64,000 nt of DNA from an uncultured Poribacteria bacterium (GTDB lineage Bacteria > Poribacteria > WGA-4E > WGA-3G): positions 3,760,217 to 3,824,216 of the forward strand of contig OX639992.1 of NCBI GenBank assembly GCA_951828515.1, given 5' to 3'. Positions 1,813 through 63,345 of this stretch are shown in pieces. Position 1 is the first letter of the stretch. Each line of letters starts with the position of its first letter. The position numbers and the translations under genes were made by a program. The notes under the pieces are model-generated. The model did no database searches and was not told where the DNA came from. It was given only the letters and a program-made list of their open reading frames with translations.

Positions 1813-1927
1813 TTTTAATTGTTCCTTGCGGAGTTATCAAGTAGGTTTCGTACTTGATGTGCCTTTCTATAGAGTTAGGGGAAATGCCCAAGCAAAAACC
1901 CCTCCACTTTGTTTCGGGCTACGGGTT
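1813..1927 (-). repeat. R1 element, copy A (upstream of mtnP)
   Basis: Dispersed R1 repeat read on the minus strand. The 5' hairpin lies at 1899-1919 (GCCC, 13-nt loop GAAACAAAGTGGA, GGGG) and the 3' end is CCGCAAGGAACAATTAAAA followed directly by the mtnP ATG. An extra 8-bp stem (ATCAAGTA/TACTTGAT) lies at 1837-1859 between hairpin and ribosome binding site. Confidence 0.8.
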
Positions 1928-6969: not shown

Positions 6970-7085
6970 AAAGCGCGTAGCCTGCAACAACAGCACAGGG
7001 TTTTTGCTTGGGTATTTCTTCAAGATTTAAGAAAGGCGCGTTAAATCACAAACCTATGATCTTTAACCGCATGGAAAAATTAAAA
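6970..7085 (+). repeat. R1 element, copy N (runs into the nucleotidyltransferase start)
   Basis: R1 copy with the GCCTGC-type 5' hairpin (GTAGCCTGCAACAACAGC at 6977). Its 3' end reads CCGCATGG then AAAAATTAAAA at 7067-7085. The usual AAGG ribosome binding site has become ATGG, and this ATG (7071) is in frame with the downstream gene. Confidence 0.65.
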
Positions 7086-7911: not shown

Positions 7912-9129
7912 ATGGACGAAAAACCGATTCTATCCATTGTGGTCCCCGTTTACAACGAAGAAGAAAACGTTCGCCTATTGTTTGAAAAGATCCAAGCGGT
8001 ATGTGAGACGATCGGTGAAACTTATGAGGTGTTGTTTGTAGACGATGGAAGTCACGACGCAACCTTCGCAGTGCTTTCGGAACTTAGCGAGCAGAGATCG
8101 GAACTGAAGGTCATTCGATTTGAAAAGAATGCGGGGCAGACAGCAGCGATGGCGGCAGGATTTGAATTCGCACAGGGGCAACGGATCATCAGTATGGACG
8201 GTGATTTACAAAACGATCCCGCCGATATTCCGAAATTGCTTGAGAAACTCGACGAAGGCTACGATTTGGTGTGCGGATGGCGAAAAGAACGACAGGATAA
8301 ATTTTTGACACGGCGCGTCCCGTCTATCGTTGCGAATTGGATAATTGGCAAAGTAACGAGAGTCCCCATCCATGACAACGGATGTTCACTTAAAGCGTAC
8401 CGAGCATCGGTTATCAAACAGGTCCCGCTCTATGGAGAGATGCACCGATTTATCCCCGCGATGTCTACAGTCGTCGGTGCGCGTATCGCTGAAATTGTTG
8501 TCACACATCATCCACGACGTTTCGGGAAAAGCAAGTACGGACTTGGCAGGGTATGGCGCGTGATGCTGGACATTATCGCCTTTAAGTTTATCATCTCCGT
8601 TTTTGCGCAACGTTCCAAACCACAAAAACCATCAATGCGACAGCGGTTGTCGAATGTTCTTTTCAAACCGAAGCAGAGGGTATTTCGCGTTGCCGCATTC
8701 CTAAGTCTCCCTTTCTTTGTATTGGGGCGTGTTTTGTTCGGAAATGCTAACGTTGCGGCACTGAGCTGCTTCGGCTTAGCGATAGCCCTACTAACACTTG
8801 GGTGGATAACTGAGAACACGATTCAACACGCCAAAAAAGAGTCATCTACATTCGGCACACTCGCACGTTTTTTTATCATTCGGTGTAAACGGAGACCTAT
8901 TCGATGTTTTGGACCCGCTGGCGCGGCTTTGTTCATACTCGGTGGCATCCTCTCAATCGTGCCTTTCAATACTCTGTTGCTGAAAATTTTTAACATCGGA
9001 TCATCGAACCCGAGTGCTATTTTTGTCACCAGCGGAATTTTAGTATTCTGCTCTGGTTTGTTTGGTGAACTCATCACTTATGCCAACGCAAAGCGGGTGA
9101 AAGACTATACGATTGGAGGGCGGATATAA
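7912..9129 (+). CDS. membrane-anchored family 2 glycosyltransferase (DPM1/GtrB-like)
   Basis: GT-A fold glycosyltransferase likely using a nucleotide sugar to charge a polyprenyl phosphate. Motifs seen: SIVVPVYNEEENV (residue 8), FVDDGSHD (42), MDGDLQNDP as the metal-binding DxD region (95) and GCSLKAYRASVI (about 157), all typical of polyprenyl-phosphate sugar transferases. The C-terminal third has four hydrophobic segments (from AAFLSLPFFVLGRVLF on), so it is an integral membrane protein. 405 residues is longer than the roughly 310 of simple GtrB proteins. It sits after the nucleotidyltransferase. No strong ribosome binding site precedes the ATG. Confidence 0.88.
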   Translation: MDEKPILSIVVPVYNEEENVRLLFEKIQAVCETIGETYEVLFVDDGSHDATFAVLSELSEQRSELKVIRFEKNAGQTAAMAAGFEFAQGQRIISMDGDLQNDPADIPKLLEKLDEGYDLVCGWRKERQDKFLTRRVPSIVANWIIGKVTRVPIHDNGCSLKAYRASVIKQVPLYGEMHRFIPAMSTVVGARIAEIVVTHHPRRFGKSKYGLGRVWRVMLDIIAFKFIISVFAQRSKPQKPSMRQRLSNVLFKPKQRVFRVAAFLSLPFFVLGRVLFGNANVAALSCFGLAIALLTLGWITENTIQHAKKESSTFGTLARFFIIRCKRRPIRCFGPAGAALFILGGILSIVPFNTLLLKIFNIGSSNPSAIFVTSGILVFCSGLFGELITYANAKRVKDYTIGGRI

Positions 9130-9186
9130 GCAACGCACCTAAAAGTCGAAACGGGCGTTGTTTCTCCGCAAGGAACAATTAAAAAT
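9130..9186 (+). repeat. R1 element, copy B (3' end only)
   Basis: CGTTGTTTCTCCGCAAGG then AACAATTAAAAAT at 9153-9186 is the R1 3' module upstream of the class V aminotransferase. The 5' hairpin is absent; the preceding gene ends at 9129. Confidence 0.6.
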
Positions 9187-10598: not shown

Positions 10599-12068
10599 AT
10601 GGGAACTGACCGCCGACAGTCCGTCTTTTACCTGTCACTTATTTTAGCCACGCTGTTAATGCTCAATGCCTGTACGATGCCCGGCGGTAATCAGAAGATT
10701 AGCAAAATCCGTCTCTCCATCCAAAATCCGTTACCTATCCAACGGAAAAAGATTCCAATCGTGCTGACCGGAGCGCAACTCCGAAAGGTGAACCCCGATT
10801 TCACCTTCAAAGCCTATTCCGTTGTTACCGGGAATGCCCCGCGAGAAGTGATGATTCCTGCACAAGCGGATGATTTGGACTATGACGGTGAACGCGATCA
10901 ACTCTGCTTTCTATTAGATTTAGAGCCGGAAGAGACAAAAGAGGTTTCGATTCTTTACGATCCCAACGTCAAGGCAACATTGACACTGGATATCAATAAA
11001 CAGACGCGCGCCGCTATCTTTCCCGAACTCGATGTCGTGGCGGCAATGGAATCGAATTTGATTGCGTATTTATTAAAGCCGAACGGTGCTTTCATCGCTT
11101 ATGGAAAAAGACGGGCAGAATTGTTTAGTGTAGATGCGATGTTTCAGCCCGAATTAGATTACGAAAGACCGCTCTCGCCAGAACTCAGACACCATTTTGA
11201 TAACAACGGCATTACCCTCTCCCAACAGGTCCAAGTAGAGATAGAAAAACAGGAGCAGCGGTGGATCGTCCGCGATCTCGAGAACCAAGAGATTTACTTT
11301 ATCCGAAAATCATACAATACCGAAGCCGGTCTCGAGCAGGAAACTACAGCAGAGGGACAGTTAGACATAGGGCAATCGATTGGCTTATCGCTGAACGCGC
11401 TTCTCAAGCCTGATACACCTGAGATGGTTGCGCTAAATGGTTCAGAAGGTCTAATAGGTTGTGGCGGAATTGCACTATGGCACAGAGAAAGCGAGGAGAT
11501 GATTCCACTACCCACTGAAGGCAATTACGTCCGGATTCTCGCCGATGGTTCCATTCGCTCTATTGTCCAGCGAATTGTGCCTGAGTGGGATATTCAAGGT
11601 GAAATACACCGGTTAACATTAACCACCTTCATCTATGGAGATAATCCGTGGATCGAACACTATATTCATATTGATGGAAACCTCATCACGGATTATGCTG
11701 TTGCTACAGGGATTCCATACCTGAACGGTGCTTATGAGGAGGATAGAAAGCAGGGGTGGATATGGAGTTGGGGTACAGATCCGAGCGACATAGATACACT
11801 TGGTGTTGCACTCATTGCCTTCACCGATCGCGAGACACTGGACATAAACGCCGCTGTCAATCGCAATGGATCGGGAGATTCTCTTTTGCCGGTTATCCTC
11901 GTTCCAGATGCAGAAGGCAGGCTCAATTATCGGACGTTTGCTATTTGGGGAGGCGGTATAGATGGCTTTGAGACCGAGGCGGAATTCGCGGAGCACGTTC
12001 AAATCACGACGACTGCGTTGAAGACTCCACCACACATCAAGTTCCTGCCCAAAGAAGAGGAAAAGTAG
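10599..12068 (+). CDS. secreted lipoprotein, DUF4861-like
   Basis: About 489 residues with a lipoprotein signal (RRQSVFYLSLILATLLMLNAC; Cys near residue 25). The body is predicted beta-rich and resembles DUF4861 proteins of polysaccharide-degrading bacteria (IRLSIQNPLPIQRKKIPIVL at the start, GTDPSDIDTLGVAL and YRTFAIWGGG near the end). The catalytic role is unknown. The open frame reaches back to 10446 through an 8-bp tandem repeat and an R2 copy; ATG 10599 gives a clean signal peptide but lacks an obvious ribosome binding site. The next two genes (TPP subunit, aldo/keto reductase) follow in the same direction with gaps of 78 and 38 bp, so they may be co-transcribed and used in sugar-acid breakdown (inference). 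Confidence 0.75.
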   Translation: MGTDRRQSVFYLSLILATLLMLNACTMPGGNQKISKIRLSIQNPLPIQRKKIPIVLTGAQLRKVNPDFTFKAYSVVTGNAPREVMIPAQADDLDYDGERDQLCFLLDLEPEETKEVSILYDPNVKATLTLDINKQTRAAIFPELDVVAAMESNLIAYLLKPNGAFIAYGKRRAELFSVDAMFQPELDYERPLSPELRHHFDNNGITLSQQVQVEIEKQEQRWIVRDLENQEIYFIRKSYNTEAGLEQETTAEGQLDIGQSIGLSLNALLKPDTPEMVALNGSEGLIGCGGIALWHRESEEMIPLPTEGNYVRILADGSIRSIVQRIVPEWDIQGEIHRLTLTTFIYGDNPWIEHYIHIDGNLITDYAVATGIPYLNGAYEEDRKQGWIWSWGTDPSDIDTLGVALIAFTDRETLDINAAVNRNGSGDSLLPVILVPDAEGRLNYRTFAIWGGGIDGFETEAEFAEHVQITTTALKTPPHIKFLPKEEEK

Positions 12069-12103
12069 GGATTAGGTAGGCGGAACGCCCGGCATAGACT
12101 TAA

Positions 12104-12136
12104 CGAACGTTATTACTCCGCAAGGTAGAATTAAAA
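12104..12136 (+). repeat. R1 element, copy C (3' end only)
   Basis: CTCCGCAAGG then TAGAATTAAAA matches the R1 3' module. A second ribosome binding site (AAAAGGAGAAAG) has replaced the usual abutting ATG, and the start codon at 12147 lies 10 nt further on. Confidence 0.6.
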
Positions 12137-12146
12137 GGAGAAAGTT

Positions 12147-12746
12147 ATGCTCAACAAGGAAGAATGTTTACAACTTATCGCAAACCAACGGACAGATGAA
12201 GTTGTCGTTACAACAATGGGAACTACCGTGCCGTGGGGTAAAATATCAGCACATCCGCTGGACTACGCCTCCGTCGGAAGTGCGATGGGACACGCCGCCG
12301 ACTTTGGACTCGGCATCGCACTTGCTAAACCCGATAAAAAGGTAATCGTGCTCAATGGTGACGGAAGTATGCTGATGTGTTTAGGGACATTGGCGACGAT
12401 TACCGCTCTGAACACACCACCCCCTAACTATCTGCTTTTTGTGTGTGACAACGGTACCTATGAAGTCACAGGCAATCAACCGGTGCCTGATGGCAACTCA
12501 GGTTTCAGTTGGACCACAATAGCGAGAGGGGTCGGTTTCGAGCAGGTTTATGAATTTGACAATTCAAATGCGCTTGATGAAGCACTCCCGAAGATCTGGA
12601 ATGAAACTGGACCCACTTTTGTGAGCTTGAAGATTGCGCAAGCACACGAACCACCGCCGGATCGGTGGGGCGGTTTCCCGTATCCGTATCTGCAAGAGTC
12701 ACTTGCCGAATCCACACATAAGTTAAAAGATGCACTCGCAAGGTAG
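12147..12746 (+). CDS. stand-alone TPP-binding domain protein (sulfopyruvate/phosphonopyruvate decarboxylase beta-like)
   Basis: 199 residues forming only the pyrophosphate-binding half of a thiamine-diphosphate enzyme. The TPP motif GDGSMLMCLGTLATI begins near residue 71 and is followed by CDNGTYEVTGNQ, with the metal-ligand Asn. The upstream GSAMGHAADFGLGIALA is also typical. Two-subunit enzymes of this type (for example sulfopyruvate decarboxylase ComDE) keep the other half in a separate subunit; no such partner lies in this window. The ribosome binding site AAAGGAGAAAG is strong. Confidence 0.85.
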   Translation: MLNKEECLQLIANQRTDEVVVTTMGTTVPWGKISAHPLDYASVGSAMGHAADFGLGIALAKPDKKVIVLNGDGSMLMCLGTLATITALNTPPPNYLLFVCDNGTYEVTGNQPVPDGNSGFSWTTIARGVGFEQVYEFDNSNALDEALPKIWNETGPTFVSLKIAQAHEPPPDRWGGFPYPYLQESLAESTHKLKDALAR

Positions 12747-23754: not shown

Positions 23755-23856
23755 TTTTTAATTGTTCCTTGCGGTTCGGTGAGTTGAGTTGGTTAAATGC
23801 GCTTACTTTCCGTATATCCGCCTGCGCCGTTGTTGCAGGCTGCGCGTTTTGGTTGT
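23755..23856 (-). repeat. R1 element, copy D (upstream of clpB)
   Basis: Minus-strand R1 with the GCCTGC-type hairpin (23820-23840: GCCTGC, loop AACAACGGC, GCAGGC) and 3' end CCGCAAGGAACAATTAAAA directly before the clpB ATG (one extra A pair). Confidence 0.8.
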
Positions 23857-23982
23857 AGTTTGTACTCAGATTCTAATCATTCTTTAATTATTCCTTCCCC
23901 TAAATCCCGCTTATCGGGGGACTTTGTTGAGAGGAAAGACATAAGGCCTCTATATAATAGTATAGCAAGATCTATGCCATTT

Positions 23983-24099
23983 TATAGTAAATCCCGAAAA
24001 TACTTGCACGCTCTTGAAAACACAAAACCTAAATTGCTGGCGAGGTTTCCTAACCTCGCCGCATTACAGAGTGTAAACTTAATTATGGGTTTTACTATA
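23983..24099 (-). mobile_element. M-family MITE, copy 2 (117 bp)
   Basis: TATAGTAAATCCC at one end and GGGTTTTACTATA at the other, with the GCTGGCGAGG...CCTCGCC palindrome in the middle. It is the same length as copy 1. It lies next to an R2 copy. Confidence 0.85.
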
Positions 24100-26063: not shown

Positions 26064-26065
26064 TT

Positions 26066-26156
26066 TTTAATTTTCCCTTGCGGTTAAACGACGCGGATTC
26101 GGACTTTAGAGTTCTTTTCTTAAGAGTCGCACTCCACTTCGTTATGGGCTTGGTTT
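26066..26156 (-). repeat. R1 element, copy E
   Basis: Hairpin at 26129-26149 on the minus strand (GCCC, loop ATAACGAAGTGGA, GTGC; one mismatch). The 3' end is CCGCAAGGGAAAATTAAAA just before the start of the UnbV protein gene. Confidence 0.8.
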
Positions 26157-26162
26157 TCGCGT

Positions 26163-26957
26163 TTAATTTTGCCTTTCATCCGAGGTTCGATACATCTCCA
26201 AGATGATTTCAAGCATGTCGGGTGCTTTGGCGAGATAGCGCACCTTTGCTTCTTCTTTAATTTCGTTAGGGATATCGTGTAGTGCTTCTGCGATACCACC
26301 CGCAATCGAACCGAGAGTATCCGAATCGCCACCGAGAGAGACAGCGTTACGCACCGCATCTTCATAACTCTCTGATTCCAAAGCACACGTGACCGCCTGT
26401 GGGACTGTGCCTTGGCACGTCATATCGAAAGCATAATCCGGACGGATATCGTCTGCCGTTTGTGTCAGGTCGTAGCCGTACTCGGCAGTGATAGTCTCGC
26501 GGATACTTGTAGGACTTTCGCCTCGGAAGGCGAGATAGATGGCGTGAGTCGTCGCCCGAGCACCTTTTATACCTTCCGGATGGTCGTGACTAATAACGGT
26601 CACTTTGTCAGCCGCGACGAGTGCCGCATCCAAATCATCTCGGTTCAGAAACGCCGCTGGTGAGACGCGCATCGCCGCACCGTTACGGAAAGTGCAGTTC
26701 GGTGCATCCGTCTCAGCGTAAATCCAGTTTTTAAAGATTTGGCTAAAACCGCATTTTGGGTACCGTTTCCCCCACTTCCGCATCGTTTCCGCTGGCGATA
26801 GATCGTGTAAAAGAGTATCAGCGACAGCAGTCGTGCAAACCGAATCATCTGTGAAACGGCACTCCTCACCGAAAAAAGGGAAATCTTTGGTTTTAATCCG
26901 ACGATCCTTGGGTTCGTAGATTGATCCAACAATGTCTCCAATAATTGCACCCAGCAT
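26163..26957 (-). CDS. ADP-ribosylglycohydrolase family protein
   Basis: Likely removes ADP-ribose from proteins or small molecules using two magnesium ions. 264 residues. GAIIGDIVGSIYE at the N-terminus, FTDDS (metal ligands) near residue 34, and LGGDSDTLGSIAGGIAEALHD near residue 210 (second metal cluster) are the hallmark motifs of the DraG-like family. No ADP-ribosyltransferase is next to it. The UnbV gene starts about 100 bp downstream on the same strand, with an R1 copy between, so it is probably expressed separately. Confidence 0.92.
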   Translation of the reverse strand: MLGAIIGDIVGSIYEPKDRRIKTKDFPFFGEECRFTDDSVCTTAVADTLLHDLSPAETMRKWGKRYPKCGFSQIFKNWIYAETDAPNCTFRNGAAMRVSPAAFLNRDDLDAALVAADKVTVISHDHPEGIKGARATTHAIYLAFRGESPTSIRETITAEYGYDLTQTADDIRPDYAFDMTCQGTVPQAVTCALESESYEDAVRNAVSLGGDSDTLGSIAGGIAEALHDIPNEIKEEAKVRYLAKAPDMLEIILEMYRTSDERQN

Positions 26958-31636: not shown

Positions 31637-34600
31637 ATGAAGAATGTCATCAAAATTAGTTTTATATTAACATTAGCGTTTATTCTGGGATATCAGACTG
31701 CCGAGGCACAGCAGAATCCCGCACAAGAGGCATATCTTATCTTTGAACAAAGTTGCTTTGATTGCCACGGACCCCACGGTGCTTTCACTGAACAATTCGT
31801 CATTGAATCGGCATCACAGTTGGTTGCTACCGGCGCAGTTGTGCGAGAGAAACCTGCCGCATCCGAACTCTATCGGCGACTGCTTGAAAATGATCCAGCG
31901 AAACGGATGCCTTTGGGACAAGACCCACTTCCCGTTGAAGCGATTCTGACCATCGGTAATTGGATTCAAGCAGGCGCGCCGAGTTGGGACATCCAACGGG
32001 ATGTTGACTTCATTACGATGGACACAATGCTCGACACGATCAAGAAGCATGTCGAATCACTGCCGAGGTTTAATCGTCCCTTCGCTCGCTACTTTACGAC
32101 GACGCATCTCTATAACGCTGGTGAAAGTCAAGAAACACTTCGTGCCTATCAGCTTGCACTTTCAAAACTCGTAAACAGTTTATCTTGGGGATCTGAAATC
32201 ATCAAACCCCAACCCATTGATCCCAGAAAAACTATTTTCTATATCGACCTCCGTCGCTACGAGTGGGATGTCAGAAACGATGCATGGACACAGATCGAAC
32301 AGGAGTATCCCTATGGCATTGAGTTTGATTCGGACACACAGGCAGGACTACGTGCGAAACTAACGTCCCTCCGTCAACAGATGGAATGCGAGGTGCCGTT
32401 TGTGCATGTTGACTGGTTCCTCGCAACTGCCTCACTACCACCGCTCTACCACGATATTCTGGATCTTCCAGAGACAGATCGTGAACTGGAAAGAGATCTG
32501 GGGATAGATGTCGCAAGAAATCTCCAAAGCGCGCAGGGGTTTCGCGTCTGGCGTGCGGGGCTCAACGATTCAGGCGTCTCAAAAAATAATCGAGTTGTCG
32601 AACGCCACACATCTCAACACGGTGCGTATTGGAAAAGTTACGATTTTGCCGGAAATGTCGGTGTGCAGAATATCTTTGACCATCCGCTGACATTTAGGCA
32701 TGACGGTGGTGAGATCGTCTTTAATCTCCCTAACGGGTTGCAGGCATACTATATCTCCGACGCATCGGGCACCCGCCTTGATGAAGCACCAACACGGATC
32801 GTCTCCAACCCCGATGAGAGAGATGGCATCGTCCGAAACGGCATCTCTTGTATCGGTTGCCATACAGAAGGGATGAAGACATTTGAAGATGGCGTGCGTG
32901 AGGTTTTCACAAAGGCACCAGACGGACTTGCCAAAGTGCAGGTATTGCGTCTATATGTAGAAAAAGCAAAAATGGACGAACTTGTGAGCGAGGATACAGA
33001 ACGTTACAGACGAGCCCTTGAAGCGACAGGGGGTGTTTTTGGTGGGATTGAACCGGTGTATCGGTTCTATAAGGCGTTTGAAGGACCCGTGGATGCGGCA
33101 CATGCGGCTGCGGCTGTGGGTTTAGAGGCGGAAGTCTTCCTCACAGAGATTCGTAGAAAGCCGAGTTTACAGCGTCTGGGTTTGCGAACATTGGAGAGCG
33201 CGAACGGTAACGTCAAACGCGATGCATGGACATCTAACTTTGCTGCGGTGATTTCTGCGCTGAACTCCCCGGATAGCGTCGGACCAAGACCAGTTGTCCC
33301 TGTGGATGACCTGAGTCCGAGTGATTTGATTCCGATTCCAGACATAAACCTTCGCGCTGCGGTTGAATCGGCACTCGGCAAACCGGCAGGTGCATTGATT
33401 ACAGCGGCGGATATGGCAAGATTGGAGCGTCTTGAAGCAGATGAAGCTGGGATTGTCAGTTTAACAGGACTTGAAGCAGCAACGAACCTTGAACGTATAG
33501 AATTTCGTCTTAATGCGATATCCGATCTCACCCCGTTGGCGAGATTAACACGACTGAATAATATCAAGCTGCGCGGGAACAGAATCACTGACGTGTCACC
33601 GCTCGCAGGTCTAATCAACGTAGACTGGCTTGGGCTTGAGGAAAACCAAATAACCGATTTGTCCCCATTGAAAGGTTTAACAAAATTAAACGGGATAGGG
33701 ATTTCGGGTAATCCAGTATCGAACGTGTTGCCCCTTGCGAGTCTGACGAGTCTGGCAGGCATAGCCGCTGGGAGGACGCTTATCTCAGATTTTTCGTCCT
33801 TAGCAAAACTACCCAGACTGCGATGGATAGAGTTTGGTGGCGATCGATCTATATCAAAGATTCCCTCTCTAAAGGGATTAAAAACACTGAGACGACTGAA
33901 CATTGATCACTGCAGTATTAAAGATCTTTCCGCTTTGGCGGAATTAACGCAGTTGCAGGAACTAGCATTCGTAAATAACTCGATATCGGACGTGTCGCCA
34001 TTGAGAAACCTAAAAAACTTGGAACATCTGAATCTCGGTGCCAACGTCATCTCCGACGTATCTCCGCTTGCGGGGTTAACCAAGTTGAAGGGGTTATACC
34101 TTGAAAACAACGTCATATCGGATGTATCGCCCCTTGCGGGACTAAAGAATTTGGAACGACTCGACCTCCGTAACAACGCAATATCCGACTTTTCACCTTT
34201 AGACGGATTGCCCGAAGAGACTATTATCCGAATGGAAGGCAATTCGGGTTCTGTTGTAAGAAGAGGGGCGAGGAAAATAGTGGGACCATGGCTATGGATG
34301 ATTGCACCAACAGGTGGCAGGTCCGGTGCTGAGGCTGTTAATTCTCGGATAGATTTCCTTTCACAAGCGAGTGGCGGTGCTGTAACAGAATTGAAGATTG
34401 CAAGCCAGGGCGCAACAGCAGGAAACTCTGTTGGAAATAAAGCGTGGATGGTCGGGACACTTTCTCCTGAAGGAGGCAATAACATTAATGAGATGGTGAA
34501 TGATACTGGTTTGGGATCAGGCAATGTAGACCATCATGTTGCCTATGGTTCGGTTAACTTGAATTCGCCCCGGGAGCAAAAAACAAAAATGCTTGTCGGC

Positions 34601-36295
34601 AGCGATGATGCTGTCAAGGTTTGGCTCAATGGCAGTTTAGTGCACAACAATCCTGTGGACCGAGGAGCCAACGATTTCCAAGATCAGTTTTCTGTTACTT
34701 TGAAAAAGGGAACAAATATCTTATTAATTGCTGTTTACGAGGCGCGAGGCGGGTGGAGCGGCTTTTTTGGGTTTGAAACTGGTACAGAATATACAGTATT
34801 AACCCCCAGTGAGCGATTCTCCTTGTCTATAGGAACAACGCAGGTTGGACTCGGTGATACTTTCACCCTCCGTCTCAGTGCAGACAATATAACCGATTTA
34901 GCGGGCTGGCAAACTGATATTACCTTTGATCCGAATGTACTAAAAGCAAACAGCGTGAACGAGGGCAACTTTCTGAAGCAGAAGGGTGGACGCACCCACT
35001 TTCGGGAAGGCACGATTGATAATCAAAAAGGGAATATCGCCAGTGTAAGTTCGACGCGGACCTCCCAAGGTGGGGCAGATGGTGAAGGCACATTGTTGTC
35101 CGTCACGTTCATGGCAAAGGCTACCGGAAAAACTCGAGTGTCCCTACGTGGGTTTCACGCAGGTTCCAGTGTTGGTAAGACAATTCCGTCTCGTGCTCTT
35201 GATGTAATTATGACTATCGGAACTCCTTCTGTTTCGGATGTGAGTGATAACCTGTTTGCCCTTTCTGCCGATACGTCGCCTGTCAATTCTGGTGGTTCCT
35301 TTACCCTTCGTCTTAGTGCAGAAGATATTGTCGATTTAGCAGGCTGGCAAACTGATATTACCTTTGATCCTGCTGTGCTTGAAGCGGTTAAGGTTAACGA
35401 AGGTGATTTTCTGAAAGCAGGGGGTGAAGGCAGTTTCTTTTTGAGAGGCACAATTGATAATACAGCGGGTAAAATTACAGGAGTCAGTGCCGCGCGACTC
35501 ACCGGAGGGGTCAACGGCACAGGTAGGTTGCTGTCGGTCACATTCACTGCGAAGGCTGTTGGAGAAACCCGAGTGACATTTAGCAACTTCCAAGCTGGGA
35601 ACAGGAGGAGTGAAGTAATCCCTGCAAACACGCCCGAAATTATCGTTACTATTGAAGACAGCGCGTTTCCTGCGTGGGATATAAATCAGGACGGTCACGT
35701 AAACGTTCTGGATCTAATTCAGGTCGCACAACACTTTGGTTCAACTGTATCTGCGAATCACAAATCTGACATGAATGGCGATGGTGTTATTAACGTTTTA
35801 GACCTGATCACTGTGGCACAACACTTAGGTGAGTCAACAACTTCAGCGTCTCCTATTATCGTTGCGATGGATAACATAGAGGGCTTGGATGCTACGATGA
35901 TACAGACATGGATAGAACGTGCGCAGGTTGAAAATGATGGCTCCATTGCCTTCCGGCAGGCGATTGCCAACCTTGAGCAACTTTTAGCGTTATTTGTCCC
36001 AGAGGAAACGGTTTTACTTCACAACTACCCGAATCCCTTTAACCCAGAGACATGGATACCGTACCACCTTGCGGAACCTGCGGAAGTCACGTTCCGTATC
36101 TATGCTGCGAGTGGTGTTTTAGTTCGGACGTTGGCATTGGGGTATCAACCGGCTGGCATCTATGAGTATCGGAGTCGTGCGGCATATTGGGACGGGAAAA
36201 ACGCAGTGGGTGAGTCAGTCGCAAGCGGAGTCTATTTTTATACACTCACCGCTGGCGATTTCACGGCTACCGGAAAAATGCTGATAATGAAATAA
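31637..36295 (+). CDS. giant dihaem-cytochrome / LRR / double-cohesin / dockerin surface protein (pair 1, long)
   Basis: 1552 residues. Signal peptide to about 24; CFDCH haem motif at 40-44 in a planctomycete-type cytochrome domain; a conserved region with IFNLPNGLQAYYISDASG and a second haem motif CIGCH at 405-409; an internalin-type LRR array from IPDINLRAAVESALGK (about 567) to 862; a GPWLW beta-sandwich region (about 880-1050); two cohesin-like domains (about 1059-1193 and 1205-1340, each with DLAGWQTDITFDP); a dockerin (DINQDGHVNVLDL, DMNGDGVINVLDL; about 1343-1400); and the NYPNPFNPETWIPYHL sorting domain from about 1459. Cohesin and dockerin in one chain could allow head-to-tail assembly. 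Ribosome binding site GGGGAGAAAG. Confidence 0.92.
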   Translation: MKNVIKISFILTLAFILGYQTAEAQQNPAQEAYLIFEQSCFDCHGPHGAFTEQFVIESASQLVATGAVVREKPAASELYRRLLENDPAKRMPLGQDPLPVEAILTIGNWIQAGAPSWDIQRDVDFITMDTMLDTIKKHVESLPRFNRPFARYFTTTHLYNAGESQETLRAYQLALSKLVNSLSWGSEIIKPQPIDPRKTIFYIDLRRYEWDVRNDAWTQIEQEYPYGIEFDSDTQAGLRAKLTSLRQQMECEVPFVHVDWFLATASLPPLYHDILDLPETDRELERDLGIDVARNLQSAQGFRVWRAGLNDSGVSKNNRVVERHTSQHGAYWKSYDFAGNVGVQNIFDHPLTFRHDGGEIVFNLPNGLQAYYISDASGTRLDEAPTRIVSNPDERDGIVRNGISCIGCHTEGMKTFEDGVREVFTKAPDGLAKVQVLRLYVEKAKMDELVSEDTERYRRALEATGGVFGGIEPVYRFYKAFEGPVDAAHAAAAVGLEAEVFLTEIRRKPSLQRLGLRTLESANGNVKRDAWTSNFAAVISALNSPDSVGPRPVVPVDDLSPSDLIPIPDINLRAAVESALGKPAGALITAADMARLERLEADEAGIVSLTGLEAATNLERIEFRLNAISDLTPLARLTRLNNIKLRGNRITDVSPLAGLINVDWLGLEENQITDLSPLKGLTKLNGIGISGNPVSNVLPLASLTSLAGIAAGRTLISDFSSLAKLPRLRWIEFGGDRSISKIPSLKGLKTLRRLNIDHCSIKDLSALAELTQLQELAFVNNSISDVSPLRNLKNLEHLNLGANVISDVSPLAGLTKLKGLYLENNVISDVSPLAGLKNLERLDLRNNAISDFSPLDGLPEETIIRMEGNSGSVVRRGARKIVGPWLWMIAPTGGRSGAEAVNSRIDFLSQASGGAVTELKIASQGATAGNSVGNKAWMVGTLSPEGGNNINEMVNDTGLGSGNVDHHVAYGSVNLNSPREQKTKMLVGSDDAVKVWLNGSLVHNNPVDRGANDFQDQFSVTLKKGTNILLIAVYEARGGWSGFFGFETGTEYTVLTPSERFSLSIGTTQVGLGDTFTLRLSADNITDLAGWQTDITFDPNVLKANSVNEGNFLKQKGGRTHFREGTIDNQKGNIASVSSTRTSQGGADGEGTLLSVTFMAKATGKTRVSLRGFHAGSSVGKTIPSRALDVIMTIGTPSVSDVSDNLFALSADTSPVNSGGSFTLRLSAEDIVDLAGWQTDITFDPAVLEAVKVNEGDFLKAGGEGSFFLRGTIDNTAGKITGVSAARLTGGVNGTGRLLSVTFTAKAVGETRVTFSNFQAGNRRSEVIPANTPEIIVTIEDSAFPAWDINQDGHVNVLDLIQVAQHFGSTVSANHKSDMNGDGVINVLDLITVAQHLGESTTSASPIIVAMDNIEGLDATMIQTWIERAQVENDGSIAFRQAIANLEQLLALFVPEETVLLHNYPNPFNPETWIPYHLAEPAEVTFRIYAASGVLVRTLALGYQPAGIYEYRSRAAYWDGKNAVGESVASGVYFYTLTAGDFTATGKMLIMK

Positions 36296-38517: not shown

Positions 38518-41500
38518 ATGACAAATTGGAAGAACTTCATCAAAATAAGTTTTCTATTAATATTCATCTTAGGATGTCAGATTGCTGAAGCACAACAGAA
38601 CCTCGGACAAGAGGCGTATCTTATCTTTGAACAAAGTTGCCTTGACTGCCACGGACCCCACGGATCCTTCACCGAACAATTCGTCATTGAATCCGCAGCA
38701 CAATTGGTTGCCACCGGCGCAGTTGTACGAGGAAAACCTATTGATTCCAAACTCTATCGGCGACTGCTTGAAAAGGACCCAGCGAAACGGATGCCGTTGG
38801 GCAGATCTCAGTTGCCACCCGCAGCGATTCTGAAGATTGGCGAGTGGATTCAAAAAGGCGCGCCGAATTGGGAAACCGACAGCGATGTTGACTTCATTCC
38901 CATGGACGCAATGTTTAACACTATCAAGAGGCATATCGAATCCCTACCGAGGTTTGATCGTGCCTCCGCCCGCTACTTTACGACGACGCATCTCTATAAC
39001 GCTGGTGAAAGTCAAGAAACACTTCGTGCCTATCAGCTTGCGCTTTCAAAACTCGTCAACAGTCTTTCTTGGGGATCCGAAATCGTCAAACCCATTCCCA
39101 TTGACCCCAGAAAAACTATTTTCTATATCGACCTACGCCGCTACGAGTGGGATGTCAGAAACGATGCGTGGACACAGATTGAACAGGAGTATCCCTATAG
39201 CATTGAATTTGATTCGGAAACACAGGCAGGTCTATCTTCAACACTGACATTCCTACGGCAAGAGATGGATTGCGATGTGCCGTTTGTTCACGCTGATTGG
39301 TTCCTTGCAACTGCGTCACTGCCACCGCTCTACCACGATATTCTGGATCTTCCAGAAGCAGATAGCGAACTGGAGAGAGACTTGGGGATAGATGTCACAA
39401 GAAATCTCCAAAGCGCGCCTGGGGTTCGCGTCTGGCGTGCGGGTCTCAACAATTCGGGGGTCTCAAAAAATAACCGAGTTGTCGAACGCCATCAATCTCA
39501 ACACGGTGCGTATTGGAAAAGTTACGATTTTGCCGGAAATGTCGGTGTGCAGAATATCTTTGACCATCCACTCACGTTTAGACACGACGGCGGTGAGATA
39601 GTATTCAATCTCCCTAACGGGTTGCAGGCATACTATATCTCCGACGCGTCGGGGAGCCGCATTGATGCGGCACCGACAAACATCGTTTCCAACCCCGATG
39701 AGAGAGATGGCATCGTGCGGAACGGCATCTCTTGTATCGGCTGCCATACAGAAGGAATGAAGACATTTGAAGATGGGGTGCGTGAGGTTATCGCAAAAGC
39801 ACCAGACAGTCCTGTGAAAGTGCAGGCATTGCGTTTGTATGTAGAGAAAGCAAAAATGGACGAACTCCTGAACGAAGATACACAAACTTACAGACGCGCC
39901 CTTGAAGCGACAGGGGGTGTTTTTGGTGGGATTGAACCGGTGTATCGGTTCTATAAGGCATTTGAAGGACCCGTGGATGCGGCACATGCGGCCGCAGTTG
40001 TAGGTTTAGAGACGGAGGTGTTCATTGCAAAGATTCGCGAGAATCCAAGTTTACAACGTCTGGGTTTACGGACCTTGGGGAGCGCTAGCGGTAACGTCAA
40101 ACGCGATGCGTGGACATCTAACTTTGCTGCAGTGATTGCTGCTATTTATTGGGACGACACTGGAAAGACCGAAGATGATGATGAGATAGACGACGGTTTG
40201 GTTCACATTCCTGACGTAAACCTCCGATCTGCCATTGAAGCGGCACTCGGCGAACCCGCTGGTGCATTGATTACAGCGGCGGATATGGAGAGACTGGAGT
40301 CCCTTATTGCGGATGACGCTGGTATTAGCAATTTAAGAGGACTTGAGGCTGCGACAAATCTGCAACGGATAGAACTTCGTCATAATGCGATATCCGATTT
40401 ATCGCCGGTTGCGGGGTTAACACGACTGAATAATATCAAGCTACGCGGTAACAGAATAACTGATGTATCGCCGCTTGCGGGTCTAACCATGGACTGGTTG
40501 GGGCTTGAGGAGAATGAGATAACTGATCTATCCCCACTGAAGGAGTTAAGAAAATTAAATGGAATAGGGATTGAGGGAAACCCGGTGTCCGATGTGTCGC
40601 CACTTGCGAGTCTCAGGAGTTTAGAAGGTATAAGAGCTTGGAATACCGCGATATCAGACTTCTCTCCCTTGGCAAATTCTTCGAGGCTCCGATGGTTAGA
40701 ATTTAGCGGCAATAGATCAATGTCAAAACTCACGTCTCTGAGGGGTTTGAAAACACTCAGACGATTGGAAATCAACCATTGTGGTATTTCGGATATATCG
40801 GGATTGGCACAGTTAACACAACTGACATCGTTAACATTGTATGATAACTTGATATCGGATGTATCGCTGTTGAAAAATTTAAAAGGGTTGACCCATTTAA
40901 ATCTGAGTGACAATGTCATATCGGATGTATCACCCCTTTCAGGACTCAGTAAATTGGAAACGTTAATCCTTCAGAATAATGTGATCGCCGATATCTCGCC
41001 CTTAGAAAAGTTGCCCAATAAAACATCTATCTCCTTGGCTAACAATCCAGGATTTCCGCGCGGCGGTCCGAAAATAACAGGCCCATGGTTATGGGTCCTG
41101 ATGCGAGGAGCACAGTTTGACACTTTCCGTAACACAGATTTACTTGCACAGGCAAGTGGTGGTGATGTAACGGAGCGGGAGATTGCTACCAATGGTGCAG
41201 CGGCCGGGGAATCCGTTGGTGATAGCGTCTGGACATCCCACACAGTCTCCCCGGATGCAGATAACATCAACCGCCTCTTGAGAGATCTCAGTATATCAAA
41301 AGATGGCAACCCCGAGCATGTGATTTATGGTTCAGTCACCTTGGATTCACCGCGTGAGCAGAACACAAAAATGTTTGCTGGGAGTGATAATAACCACAAA
41401 ATTTGGCTCAATGGAGGATTAGTTAAGGAGAAACTGGGTGAAGGGTGGGCGCATGATTATGAACAGTTCTTCCCAGTCACACTTAAACAGGGAAGAAATG

Positions 41501-43077
41501 TGTTGTTAGTTGCTATTCATTATTGGGGCGGTGGGTGGGCCGGTCATTTCGGGTTCGCGCCTGATGCCGAATATACGGTGTTGTCCCCAGATGAGAGATT
41601 CTCCTTATCCACGCAAGCAGCACAAATCGGGATTAACAAGGCGTTCACCCTCCAGTTGAAGACAAACAATATCACTGACTTAGCGGGCTGGCAAGCCGAT
41701 CTTGTATTTGACCCAGATGTGCTTAAGGCAAACAGCGTGACTGAAGGCAACTTCCTAAAGCAGAAAGGTGGACGCACCCACTTTCGCAAAGGCACGATTG
41801 ATAATCAAAAGGGTAAAATCGCTGGTATAAGTTCGACGCGGATCTCCCAAGGCGGCGTAGACGGTGAAGGGGCACTGCTGTCAGTCACATTCACGACGAA
41901 GGCTGTCGGAGAAACACGAGTAGCACTGCGTAGGTTTCAGGCAGGTTCCAGTGCCGGCGAGGTAATTCCCGCCCGCCCTTCTGAAATAATCATTGCCGTT
42001 GGAACACAGTCTACCTCGGATGTGAGTGATGTTGGGTTTGTCCTTTCCACGGATGCAACGTCTGTCCGTTCTGGCGATCCCTTCACCCTTCGTCTCAGCG
42101 CAGAAAAGGTTGCCGATTTAGCAGGTTGGCAAACCGATATTGCGTTTGACTCGGAGGCGCTTGAAGCGGTTGAGGTAAACGAAGGCGATTTTCTGAAAAA
42201 AGGAGGCGAAGGCACCTTCTTTTTGAGAGGAACAATTGATAACGCAGCAGGTAAAATCACCAGCATCAGTTCCGCGCGACTCAGTGGTGGTGTCAATGGC
42301 ACAGGCACATTGTTATCGGTCACATTCACAGCAAAGACTACCGGGGAAACACGAATAACGCTCAGCAATCTCCATGCTGGAGACAGCAGCACTGAGGCGA
42401 TCCTTTTAGACGCGCCCGAAATTGTCATCATGATTGGAGACAGAGCATTTCCTGCTTGGGATGTAAATCAGGATGGTCAAGTGAACGTTCTGGATCTAAT
42501 TGGGGTTGCACAACACTTAGGCAACGACGCATCCGTGAACTCCCAAGCCGACGTAAACGGCGACGGTACTATTAACGTCTTAGACCTGATCACTGTGGCG
42601 CAACACTTAGGTGAGTCAACAACTTCAGCGTCTCCTATTATCGTTGCGATGGATAACATAGAGGGCTTGGATGCTACGATGATACAGACATGGATAGAAC
42701 GTGCGCAGGTTGAAAATGATGGCTCCATTGCCTTCCGGCAGGCGATTGCCAACCTTGAGCAACTTTTAGCGTTATTTGTCCCAGAGGAAACGGTTTTACT
42801 TCACAACTACCCGAATCCCTTTAACCCAGAGACATGGATACCGTACCACCTTGCGGGACCTGCGGAAGTCACGTTCCGTATCTATGCTGCGAGTGGTGTT
42901 TTAGTTCGGACGTTGGCATTGGGGTATCAACCCGCAGGCATCTATGAGTATCGGAGTCGTGCGGCGTATTGGGATGGTAAGAATGAACTCGGTGAGTCTG
43001 TGGCGAGTGGTATCTATTTTTATACCCTAACCGCAGGTGATTTCGCTGCCACGCGCAAGATGTTGATAATGAAGTAA
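38518..43077 (+). CDS. giant dihaem-cytochrome / LRR / double-cohesin / dockerin surface protein (pair 2, long)
   Basis: 1519 residues, paralogue of the gene at 31637 with the same order: export signal, CLDCH (41-45), second haem motif CIGCH (406-410), LRRs, GPWLWVLM beta-sandwich region, two cohesin-like domains (DLAGWQADLVFDP and DLAGWQTDIAFDS), dockerin (DVNQDGQVNVLDL, DVNGDGTINVLDL) and the sorting domain ending TRKMLIMK. Unlike its twin, the signal has a lipobox-like ILGCQ (Cys 20 where the twin has Tyr), so it might be lipidated at the N-terminus. Its last kilobase includes a 350-bp tract almost identical to the twin. Last gene of the four-gene run. Confidence 0.92.
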   Translation: MTNWKNFIKISFLLIFILGCQIAEAQQNLGQEAYLIFEQSCLDCHGPHGSFTEQFVIESAAQLVATGAVVRGKPIDSKLYRRLLEKDPAKRMPLGRSQLPPAAILKIGEWIQKGAPNWETDSDVDFIPMDAMFNTIKRHIESLPRFDRASARYFTTTHLYNAGESQETLRAYQLALSKLVNSLSWGSEIVKPIPIDPRKTIFYIDLRRYEWDVRNDAWTQIEQEYPYSIEFDSETQAGLSSTLTFLRQEMDCDVPFVHADWFLATASLPPLYHDILDLPEADSELERDLGIDVTRNLQSAPGVRVWRAGLNNSGVSKNNRVVERHQSQHGAYWKSYDFAGNVGVQNIFDHPLTFRHDGGEIVFNLPNGLQAYYISDASGSRIDAAPTNIVSNPDERDGIVRNGISCIGCHTEGMKTFEDGVREVIAKAPDSPVKVQALRLYVEKAKMDELLNEDTQTYRRALEATGGVFGGIEPVYRFYKAFEGPVDAAHAAAVVGLETEVFIAKIRENPSLQRLGLRTLGSASGNVKRDAWTSNFAAVIAAIYWDDTGKTEDDDEIDDGLVHIPDVNLRSAIEAALGEPAGALITAADMERLESLIADDAGISNLRGLEAATNLQRIELRHNAISDLSPVAGLTRLNNIKLRGNRITDVSPLAGLTMDWLGLEENEITDLSPLKELRKLNGIGIEGNPVSDVSPLASLRSLEGIRAWNTAISDFSPLANSSRLRWLEFSGNRSMSKLTSLRGLKTLRRLEINHCGISDISGLAQLTQLTSLTLYDNLISDVSLLKNLKGLTHLNLSDNVISDVSPLSGLSKLETLILQNNVIADISPLEKLPNKTSISLANNPGFPRGGPKITGPWLWVLMRGAQFDTFRNTDLLAQASGGDVTEREIATNGAAAGESVGDSVWTSHTVSPDADNINRLLRDLSISKDGNPEHVIYGSVTLDSPREQNTKMFAGSDNNHKIWLNGGLVKEKLGEGWAHDYEQFFPVTLKQGRNVLLVAIHYWGGGWAGHFGFAPDAEYTVLSPDERFSLSTQAAQIGINKAFTLQLKTNNITDLAGWQADLVFDPDVLKANSVTEGNFLKQKGGRTHFRKGTIDNQKGKIAGISSTRISQGGVDGEGALLSVTFTTKAVGETRVALRRFQAGSSAGEVIPARPSEIIIAVGTQSTSDVSDVGFVLSTDATSVRSGDPFTLRLSAEKVADLAGWQTDIAFDSEALEAVEVNEGDFLKKGGEGTFFLRGTIDNAAGKITSISSARLSGGVNGTGTLLSVTFTAKTTGETRITLSNLHAGDSSTEAILLDAPEIVIMIGDRAFPAWDVNQDGQVNVLDLIGVAQHLGNDASVNSQADVNGDGTINVLDLITVAQHLGESTTSASPIIVAMDNIEGLDATMIQTWIERAQVENDGSIAFRQAIANLEQLLALFVPEETVLLHNYPNPFNPETWIPYHLAGPAEVTFRIYAASGVLVRTLALGYQPAGIYEYRSRAAYWDGKNELGESVASGIYFYTLTAGDFAATRKMLIMK

Positions 43078-43547: not shown

Positions 43548-43645
43548 GTTTTTTAATTTACCTTGCGGAGAAACAACGTGCATCTGAACTATCAAGTGTG
43601 CTCCTTTACATCCGCACTCCATTACATTACGTGCTAACGTTTTTG
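43548..43645 (-). repeat. R1 element, copy F
   Basis: Minus-strand R1. Hairpin at 43614-43634 (GCAC, loop GTAATGTAATGGA, GTGC), then ACGTTGTTTCT and CCGCAAGGTAAATTAAAA to the start of the small gene. Confidence 0.85.
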
Positions 43646-43655
43646 ATATGATACC

Positions 43656-43716
43656 GCTGGCGAGGTTTGAAACCTCATCCATTGTCAAGGTCCAAGTAAT
43701 CATGGGCTTCACTATA
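43656..43716 (+). mobile_element. truncated M-family MITE, copy 4
   Basis: From GCTGGCGAGGTTTGAAACCT to CATGGGCTTCACTATA; matches the right half of copy 2. It is sandwiched between two outward-facing R1 copies. Confidence 0.65.
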
Positions 43717-43815
43717 AACCAAAACCGTAGCCTGCAACAACGGCGCAGGCGACTCTTGGGGAAGGGACGTTGAAGTCTCAACCTACGTCGTTTACCCGCA
43801 AGGTAAAATTAAAAC
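43717..43815 (+). repeat. R1 element, copy G (not upstream of a gene)
   Basis: Plus-strand R1 with the GCCTGC hairpin at 43730-43750 and 3' end ACGTCGTTTACCCGCAAGG then TAAAATTAAAAC. It points into the 3' end of the minus-strand TIM-barrel gene; its complement encodes that protein's last residues (LCFNFTLRVNDVG). Confidence 0.85.
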
Positions 43816-47949: not shown

Positions 47950-47972
47950 TTTTTAATTGTTCCTTCTCTTGC
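47950..47972 (-). repeat. R1 element, copy H (3' end only)
   Basis: GAGAAGGAACAATTAAAAA precedes the anti-sigma ATG. Only the ribosome-binding tail is present; the usual CCGC is replaced. Confidence 0.6.
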
Positions 47973-48560: not shown

Positions 48561-48656
48561 TCTTTAATTTTACCTTGCGGAGAAACGACGTGCGCTTAGG
48601 CTTTGACGTGTGTTTCTTAAATCCGCCCTCCATTTCATTACGGGCTATAGGGTTTG
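48561..48656 (-). repeat. R1 element, copy I (upstream of the ECF sigma gene)
   Basis: Best-preserved R1: hairpin at 48625-48645 (GCCC, loop GTAATGAAATGGA with one extra G, GGGC), GGATTTAAGAAACAC, ACGTCGTTTCT, then CCGCAAGG and TAAAATTAAAGA to the ATG at 48560. Confidence 0.88.
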
Positions 48657-48676
48657 ATGTTAAAAAACCGTCGGGC

Positions 48677-54494: not shown

Positions 54495-54689
54495 TTAAAA
54501 CCGAACCCAAGCCTGAAACGAAGTGGAAGGGTTTTGCGAATCAACACAGGATTTAGTCTGGGGATAGACTAAATCCATTCCTCGTATTACATTTGCGCGT
54601 GTGGCATTCTGTGGGGTGTTTCTTCAACTCTTGAAAAAAGAACGTCAAATGCCAATCTCATGTTGTTTAACCGCAAGGAACATTTAAAA
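54495..54689 (+). repeat. R1 element, copy J, split by an extra hairpin
   Basis: The 5' hairpin (GCCT, loop GAAACGAAGTGGA, AGGG; 54511-54531) is separated from the 3' module (ACCGCAAGGAACATTTAAAA, about 54669-54688) by about 140 nt. Within these lies a perfect 11-bp stem GGATTTAGTCT/AGACTAAATCC (54549-54576). The 54389-54703 gap has no gene. Confidence 0.65.
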
Positions 54690-56058: not shown

Positions 56059-56069
56059 TTATTTTCGTA

Positions 56070-56158
56070 ATCGTAGTCCGTAATGAAATGGAGGACGGAT
56101 AGGTGGAATGCATGCAACAGTTCAAATACCCTTCCTTACTCCGCAAGGAAAAATTAAA
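56070..56158 (+). repeat. R1 element, copy K (upstream of the WD40 gene)
   Basis: Hairpin at 56076-56096 (GTCC, loop GTAATGAAATGGA, GGAC: perfect), then TCAAATACCCTTCCTTACTC, and CCGCAAGGAAAAATTAAA running straight into ATG 56159. Confidence 0.88.
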
Positions 56159-57037
56159 ATGTTCCAAAACTGCATCCAATCGGAGTTACCTCCGGGACTT
56201 AAAACTCGGTTCGATAAAAAGCAAGTAATGGCTATCACTTTCTCGCCAGATGGCACACGACTCGCCGCAGGCGGTGATGGTCGTATCTGGATATACGACA
56301 CAGCCACCGGAGCACAATTCGCAATGCTCTCGGGGTATACAGAACACATGCGCGCATTAGCATTTGCCCCGGATAATTCTCTGCTTGCCAGCGGAAGCGA
56401 AGACAATACGCTTAGACTCTGGGACACCGCCACTGCTCGCGAAGTCCTAACGTTGGCTGGGGATTCTAATCTCGTAAACGCTTTAGCATCATCTTCACCG
56501 GATGGTGTCCCGCTTCCGGGATGGGATCCGCGCACAGAGCGGCTGCTTGCTTCTTCCACTGAAGCCCCAGGGCGCATTAGGAGCCTGACGTTTTCGCCTG
56601 ATGGAACAACCCTCGCGAGTGGAAGTACGGACGGTAAGATTCGATTGTGGGAAATTGAAACAGGGGGATTACTCTCCACCTTTTCAGCACATGACGGACT
56701 TGTCTTGGCTTTGGCATTTTCGCCTGAAAGTGAGACGCTGGCGAGCGGCGGTTCGGACACACTTGTTCGGCTGTGGGATTTGGAAAGCAAGCAATTACTT
56801 ACTATATTAAGGGGGCATACCGACTCAGTCAATGCGTTGGCGTTTTCTACTGACGGTGAGCTACTCGTGAGTGGCGGGAGAGATAGCTACATTCAGTTAT
56901 GGGAAACAAGTAGTGGTAATCCTATCTCCATGTTTCCTATTCAAGGCAGTGGTATTCGTGAATTGACTTTTTCAGCAGACAGTGAAAAACTTATATGTGC
57001 GACGCATGAGGGTTCGCTTTTCATAAGAGAACGATAA
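56159..57037 (+). CDS. seven-bladed WD40 repeat protein
   Basis: About 292 residues forming seven WD40 blades, enough for a closed propeller: ITFSPDGTRLAAGGDGRIWI, LAFAPDNSLLASGSEDNTLR, a degenerate third blade near residues 105-135, LTFSPDGTTLASGSTDGKIR, LAFSPESETLASGGSDTLVR, LAFSTDGELLVSGGRDSYIQ and LTFSADSEKLICATHEGSL. No signal peptide, so probably a cytoplasmic binding scaffold. The ATG at 56159 follows the R1 ribosome binding site directly; the frame back to 56108 passes through the repeat. Confidence 0.92.
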   Translation: MFQNCIQSELPPGLKTRFDKKQVMAITFSPDGTRLAAGGDGRIWIYDTATGAQFAMLSGYTEHMRALAFAPDNSLLASGSEDNTLRLWDTATAREVLTLAGDSNLVNALASSSPDGVPLPGWDPRTERLLASSTEAPGRIRSLTFSPDGTTLASGSTDGKIRLWEIETGGLLSTFSAHDGLVLALAFSPESETLASGGSDTLVRLWDLESKQLLTILRGHTDSVNALAFSTDGELLVSGGRDSYIQLWETSSGNPISMFPIQGSGIRELTFSADSEKLICATHEGSLFIRER

Positions 57038-59016: not shown

Positions 59017-59106
59017 TTTTTAAGTATTCCTTGCGGTTAAATGACGTGAGTTTGCGCATTAATGTTCTTTGCTCGAATCCGCTCTTCATTTCATTACGAG
59101 CTACGC
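59017..59106 (-). repeat. R1 element, copy L
   Basis: Hairpin at 59081-59101 (minus strand GCTC, loop GTAATGAAATGAA, GAGC: perfect), ACGTCATTTAA, and CCGCAAGGAATACTTAAAA before the ATG at 59016. The rest of the gap to 59334 holds nothing recognisable. Confidence 0.88.
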
Positions 59107-59334
59107 ACTTATACTACGAAGACGAATCATTGGACAACTTTAAGTGGACATCGGATTTCACGTGCCTTTTTTCAATCCGCTATACCGGAAAAGAACAGGC
59201 ACATTATTCTAACCACATTGAAAGAATTTTAAAGGAATTCAACGTTTTTTTCAAGGAAAAGCGACAATTGTCCCATCCGGCACACTGTACGGGTGAAGAG
59301 GGAGCATTAGATATCTCACTGAGAACGGCAAAAT

Positions 59335-63183: not shown

Positions 63184-63345
63184 TAAACCCAAAAACACAG
63201 CCTGCAACACTGGCGCAGGTGACTCTACGGAAAAGAACATGAAATTATCAGCCTACCTGACCGAACCGCAAGGAATAATTAAAAACGGAAAAGAACGTGA
63301 AACTATTAACCTACCTGACCGAACCGCAAAGAATAATTAAAATAT
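63184..63345 (+). repeat. R1 element, copy M, with 58-bp tandem duplication
   Basis: GCCTGC hairpin at 63200-63220, then the 3' part twice: ACCGAACCGCAAGGAATAAT at 63264 and ACCGAACCGCAAAGAATAAT at 63322, 58 bp apart. The second copy is translated as part of the signal peptide of the next gene. Confidence 0.8.

Follow-up and report, generated by a model that had tools for sequence, protein, structure and literature searches.

In the Beggiatoaceae, TAACTGA intergenic heptamers lie upstream of unrelated, partly essential genes, and members of their largest class stop 1 nt short of the start codon, where the ribosome-binding site would be expected (MacGregor 2015; PMC4679880). GTAG-tagged REPs measure 20-40 bp and lie near ORF 3' ends in the species examined (PMC3733652, PMC2817692). 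For the ERIC, Correia and BOX/RUP repeats, mRNA-stability, protein-site or ORF effects have been described, and such MITE-like small repeats can alter the expression of their neighbours (PMC2229807, PMC3049150). We analysed R1, a repeat of approximately 100 nt from uncultured, sponge-associated Poribacteria that, like the TAACTGA repeats, is dispersed and in many copies ends 1 nt before the starts of unrelated, partly essential genes. No description of R1 was found in the literature searched, coverage of which was partial.

Anatomy and copy number of R1

The window is a 64-kb stretch (3,760,217-3,824,216) of a single contig of 5,849,392 bases, which represents a 5.85-Mb genome (G000). R1 begins A-rich, continues with a GTAG-headed hairpin and then a variable middle of at least three subtypes, and closes with a near-invariant 3' end, CCGCAAGG-N(2-3)-AATTAAAA. 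Conservation extends from about 16 nt 5' of the GTAG-like head (TTAAAnCAAAACCGTAG) through to AATTAAAA; within the head, G (66%) and T (67%) occupy the first and second places, and A and G are invariant by the alignment anchor. In the window, exact occurrences of CCGCAAGG-N(0-8)-AATTAAAA numbered 9, compared with 0 in 100 shuffles. The exact 3' motif occurred 367 times in the contig, and the reversed pattern 0 times. A profile built from full-length copies detected 87 copies in a sample of 864 kb (the window and two blocks of 400 kb, 15% of the genome), which extrapolates to about 590 per genome.

Profile and unfiltered covariance searches gave 14 copies in the window at E < 1e-4 (Table 1). 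The sequence-only reading had counted about 14 dispersed copies with a conserved 3' end. The conservation was confirmed and the number held; the copy placed at 47950 proved to be a remnant, the last ~18 nt of R1 (AAGGAACAATTAAAAA-ATG, E = 0.18), that placed at 54495 really lies at 54620-54689, and a partial copy at 63287 had been missed. Seven of the eight starts said to be abutted were recovered (mtnP, clpB, UnbV, ECF sigma, PhyH dioxygenase, the 125-aa gene and WD40, where R1 joins a codon that in G009 encodes an internal Met). The eighth, anti-sigma, was lost, since only the short remnant precedes it; this gene has a native leader in G021 and G009. At the ECF sigma locus, the leader is native in G021, and G009 and G026 carry different R1 copies.

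Table 1. R1 copies, parts and remnants in the 64-kb window.
Feature	Position	Strand	Context
R1 with inserted TTTTTGCTTGGG hairpin	1813..1927	-	directly at mtnP start, offset 0
R1	6981..7085	+	3' end fused in frame to codon 4 of GVILAGG nucleotidyltransferase-like gene
R1	9078..9184	+	near 5' end of gene with ATG at 9217
R1, 5'-shortened	12053..12136	+	upstream of retained native SD (GGAGAAAGTT-ATG) of 12147 gene
R1	23756..23855	-	at clpB start, +1
R1	26065..26164	-	spans stop-to-start junction before UnbV gene, +1
R1	43550..43649	-	before 125-aa gene (43545), +4; head-to-head with 43715..43814 copy
R1	43715..43814	+	no start codon; at 3' end of opposite-strand gene
R1 3' remnant only (GAGAAGGAACAATTAAAAA)	47950..47968	-	before anti-sigma gene
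R1 (copy under study)	48562..48660	-	cmsearch 90.2 bits; 3' end 1 nt before ECF sigma factor gene
R1 3' core CCGCAAGG-TAA-AATTAAAG	48563..48581	-	SD-like AAGG and A-rich spacer, then ATG
R1, shortened	54620..54689	+	ATG 14 nt further on
R1	56061..56159	+	3' end meets ATG of in-frame internal Met, WD40 gene (AAATG), -1
R1	59018..59116	-	start of PhyH dioxygenase gene, +1
R1 and tandem second 5'-shortened R1	63185..63342	+	63185-63284, then 63287-63342

The suggestion that R1 is a structured leader was borne out only in part. The first hairpin carries compensatory changes, with 98% of cells paired compared with 83.6% in shuffles, none of 500 of which reached the observed value. In the middle and second half, a second helix had no covariation support, and a long second stem in the middle was rejected on this ground. 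Single copies did not fold better than shuffles, and an Rfam search with R1 matched no curated model, even at an E of 5. Some copies are 5'-shortened and keep the constant 3' end. Tandem copies also exist, including 21-nt repeats of the 3' core alone; R1 pairs were found head-to-head and never tail-to-tail. A heptamer array is absent from R1. By inspection of the consensus, terminal inverted repeats were not found, as the 5' end TTAAANCAAAACCGTAG is not complementary to CCGCAAGG..AATTAAAA. A sigma70 promoter in the TATAAT-type 3' ends was rejected, on inspection only, for lack of a suitably spaced -35.

Several further features were observed in these regions. Small hairpin sequences lie nested in R1 (1813-1927, 6981-7085 and many other copies): TTTTTGCTTGGGCGTTTCCCC within the 3' arm of the R1 hairpin, and ATTATGCC..GGCATAATTTGTCTTTGCTTTACATT within its loop. 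The short gap between two genes at 12080-12147 holds different repeats in three species, R1 here and hairpin repeats of other types in G023 and in G001, each lying immediately 5' of the native GGAG. Near-identical stretches at 36063 and 42845, in large neighbouring plus-strand genes (31637-36295 and 38518-43077), suggest recent duplication or gene conversion.

R1 at start codons and the leaders of orthologues

We located R1 relative to start codons using ORFs of at least 80 codons; start calls were based on ORFs and orthologues, without expression data. A start codon lay at -2 to +4 nt for 42 of the 78 copies with an intact 3' end, and at exactly +1 in 31. An ATG was present within 15 nt of the 3' end in 50% of copies, compared with 5% of random positions and 7.7% of other TTAAAA sites, and within 15 nt outward from the 5' end in 0 of 61. 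When genes were modelled simply, 33 of the 87 copies stood at starts, compared with 1% of random placements. Of the 84 intergenic copies, 61 were in the sense direction and no more than 400 nt upstream of a start, where about a quarter would be expected. Among the long ATG ORFs in the sample, 29 of 417 had R1 within 25 nt. About half of the copies lie away from start codons, and two form in-frame fusions with codon 3 or 4. A strict NATG target site was rejected because ATG mostly does not follow the copies away from starts. Full-length copies stood at starts regardless of score (15 of 28 higher-scoring, 19 of 28 lower-scoring). These results indicate that the placement is not merely due to survival of old copies at starts alone, and this explanation was rejected.

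In 32 of the 43 copies, the SD-like GG stood exactly 12 nt from the start codon; of the 7 copies with an inner spacer shorter by one base, 4 kept this distance. The spacing of strong native SDs in the same DNA was spread over 5-9 nt; that of R1 is much tighter, and sharper than ribosome binding seems to require. Pairing of AAGGA with the 16S 3' end (ACCTCCTTT) was calculated at about -4 to -5 kcal/mol, which is weaker than for strong native SDs. The R1-abutted genes, identified by translated N-termini, include pheS, rplI, secF, radA, scpA, hisA and clpB, and are unrelated in function, as had been claimed from the window alone. The presence of pheS, rplI, secF, radA and scpA indicates that the R1 leader must support essential translation. 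That AAGG and the A-rich stretch form a working ribosome-binding site is an inference from three observations, namely that essential genes have lost their native leaders, that AAGG lies at a fixed distance, and the sequence of the 16S tail; there are no translation data.

We compared 41 R1-abutted genes with their orthologues in G021, a species free of R1. None of the 38 orthologues had R1, the start codon was at the same place in 37 (34 ATG, 3 TTG), and 30 of the 38 had an SD-like motif of their own, although this test relies on loose 4-mers. In G009, 36 of 40 orthologues lacked R1 by an automatic test; one of the 36, gene 13, reads as R1 by eye. The G021 orthologues indicate, as far as sequence comparison can, that R1 has taken the place of native leaders, among them those of pheS, rplI, secF, hisA and clpB. 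Sites without R1 were found at UnbV, clpB, mtnP and hisA. The empty UnbV site (25 nt, stop to ATG) is clean in G030, G034 and G001; in the gene with R1, the space from stop to start is filled by R1 and the native leader is gone. At clpB, most relatives keep a GGAGG leader and seven species have R1 at the same ATG. The native mtnP leader, AAAGGACAAAAA-ATG, is found across the genus in most other species, including distant ones and G034; one R1 copy is common to five species of the R1-rich clade, and a different copy stands at the same ATG in G026 and G033. The native start of hisA is TTG and every R1 version has ATG; secF likewise has TTG natively and ATG in its R1 version. One R1 copy (gene 10) retains the native TTG, and another has GTG where relatives have ATG.

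Other sequences were noted at the same loci. The starts of secF and genes 12 and 21 are preceded by R1 in this genome and by a native SD in G021; in G009 they are preceded by another dispersed repeat, which resembles the TAACTGA repeats and has ...AACTAT-TAAAAAA or a similar sequence as its end. The replacement of leaders by repeats may be a general feature of the genus. The 'native' hisA leader (L192, L193, L204, L208 and others) contains a GTAG-headed palindrome, GTAGTAGGCACACGCCGTTGTGCC, in tandem in G001 and G009. Upstream of clpB (~23940-24000; L082-L110), TGGCATAGATCTTGCTA is conserved in both R1 and R1-free species and looks like a sigma-54 promoter.

Distribution and spread of R1

R1 is confined to one Poribacteria genus, apart from one copy elsewhere. 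The exact-motif count in species of this genus ranged from 0 (G021) to 373, and presence at orthologous loci was patchy among species. One genome per species was compared, and within-species polymorphism was thus invisible. Among 24 further genomes from the order and class, R1 was absent except for one copy in G047 (L031, another family of the order), where a single full-length R1 stands at an amidohydrolase-like start on an 11.6-kb contig; this represents either transfer between families or contamination. A search for the R1 motif plus N-ATG across the genomes of 85,000 species gave at least 80 matches, and all 80 listed were from Candidatus Poribacteria.

No mechanism of movement was identified. 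Flank words matched no better than shuffled pairs, local tandem duplications aside, and gave no evidence of target-site duplication; an apparent one at ~2.6714 Mb of the genome was rejected as a local tandem duplication. Retroposition by template jumping, which fits a constant 3' and variable 5' end, was rejected, as the genome has no RVT_1 match at E <= 0.001. Mobilisation of the IS200/IS605 or RAYT type, which two hairpins and no duplication fit loosely, was also rejected: the number of Y1 transposases does not follow that of R1 across genomes, and none of the Y1 transposase genes, the only transposases examined, is flanked by R1. Paralogous copies are old (median identity 62%; best non-local pair in the sample of this genome 87%), so no recent jump was caught.

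The analysis demonstrates a repeat with a fixed 3' end and lineage-specific copy number, which joins genes at conserved starts with loss of the native leader. The sequence-only reading had proposed a mobile translation-initiation cassette, to be abandoned if copies lay at random relative to starts or if all orthologues carried the leader by common descent. Random placement is excluded by the 42 of 78 copies at starts compared with 5% of random positions within 15 nt, and R1-free G021 and the patchy presence among species show that the orthologues do not all carry the leader. Non-random placement and orthologues without R1 make a dispersing translation-initiation cassette the best reading, supported by native leaders at 37 of 38 G021 start codons. 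We assign a probability of roughly 0.6 to the reading in which R1 disperses as a non-autonomous element and carries a ready-made ribosome-binding leader at its right end. Its mobility is inferred from presence/absence patterns, no transposase having been identified; copies are inferred to arise by copying or transposition rather than by exchange between species. The right end would be a complete leader (AAGG, 12 nt ending AATTAAAA-N, start codon). A copy joined at a start codon would cause the native leader to be lost or displaced, and the gene would then be translated from the R1-borne site. This would make the join harmless and allow R1 to accumulate at the starts of unrelated genes.

Against this reading stand the lack of a Y1 transposase partner and of a target-site duplication, the age of the paralogous copies, a spacing sharper than ribosome binding seems to require, and the half of the copies that lie away from starts. 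The native leader DNA is, moreover, replaced and not just pushed upstream, as it would be in ordinary transposition. That start codons are themselves the target, with an element or a copying process homing to them and joining there so that one leader overwrites the native ones gene by gene across the genus, is a tentative proposal, and we rather doubt it. The spacing precision, start-codon conversion and leader loss also leave room for template switching or short-patch recombination between loci, with joining at the start codon and A-rich flank, in which a donor R1-plus-ATG is copied onto a recipient gene whose native leader is lost, without any transposase. Inheritance of the exact 12-nt spacing, the change from TTG to ATG at hisA and secF, leader replacement, the WD40 join at an internal Met, the 5'-shortened and tandem partial copies with constant 3' ends, and the failure to find target duplication or reverse transcriptase would all follow. 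We nevertheless regard it as unlikely, given that the sequence shared at clpB is only ~3 nt, that ATG is mostly missing after non-start copies, and that the gene 10 copy has its TTG and another copy a GTG.

Recruitment by selection of a regulatory leader RNA (a regulon or riboswitch-like) to many genes would explain the strong covariation of the first hairpin and the copies upstream of genes in the sense direction. It is improbable because the R1 genes have no common function, Rfam gave no match, single copies fold no better than shuffles, the second half has no covariation, and one species lives with zero copies. The most strongly disfavoured account makes R1 leaders ancestral in the genus and lost in some lineages, with the pattern due to descent and gene exchange between species. 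The mtnP copy common to five species agrees with it, but R1-free species, including distant ones, have conserved native leaders in common, and among R1-rich species the same start codon holds different R1 copies or native leaders. On a three-gene tree, moreover, parsimony requires no fewer than 3 changes each for clpB and mtnP and 8 for hisA (a rough presence test with weakly supported nodes).

Comparison with known systems

If the reading of R1 as a dispersing leader is true, a spreading repeat can supplant ribosome-binding sites wholesale, even at essential genes, and comparison of related species would show the origin and turnover of translation signals directly. R1 would also serve as a natural experiment in SD spacing, and as a leader that comes ready-made and whose strength can be tested.

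A SINE-like retroposon calls for a reverse transcriptase in the genome, and this genome has no RVT_1 match at E <= 0.001. R1 resembles the MITE-like small repeats (ERIC, Correia, BOX/RUP) in being short, non-coding, high-copy and probably non-autonomous. Terminal inverted repeats and target duplications, however, were looked for and neither was found, and those repeats are not described as the ribosome-binding site of their neighbours at a fixed spacing. In regard to GTAG-type REPs, R1 is similarly high-copy (>100 copies; 367) and extragenic, with a GTAG-headed palindrome and sometimes head-to-head pairs. It differs in its length of ~100 nt, its position at start codons and the absence of a linked RAYT gene, and its palindrome is not a stand-alone unit, being almost exclusive to R1 (37 of 39 hairpin occurrences). 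The TAACTGA repeats are 7-nt tandem heptamers without SD character or hairpin, whereas the ~100-nt R1 is a single unit that has both a hairpin and an SD-like AAGG, and for R1 it is the orthologues that show native-leader replacement.
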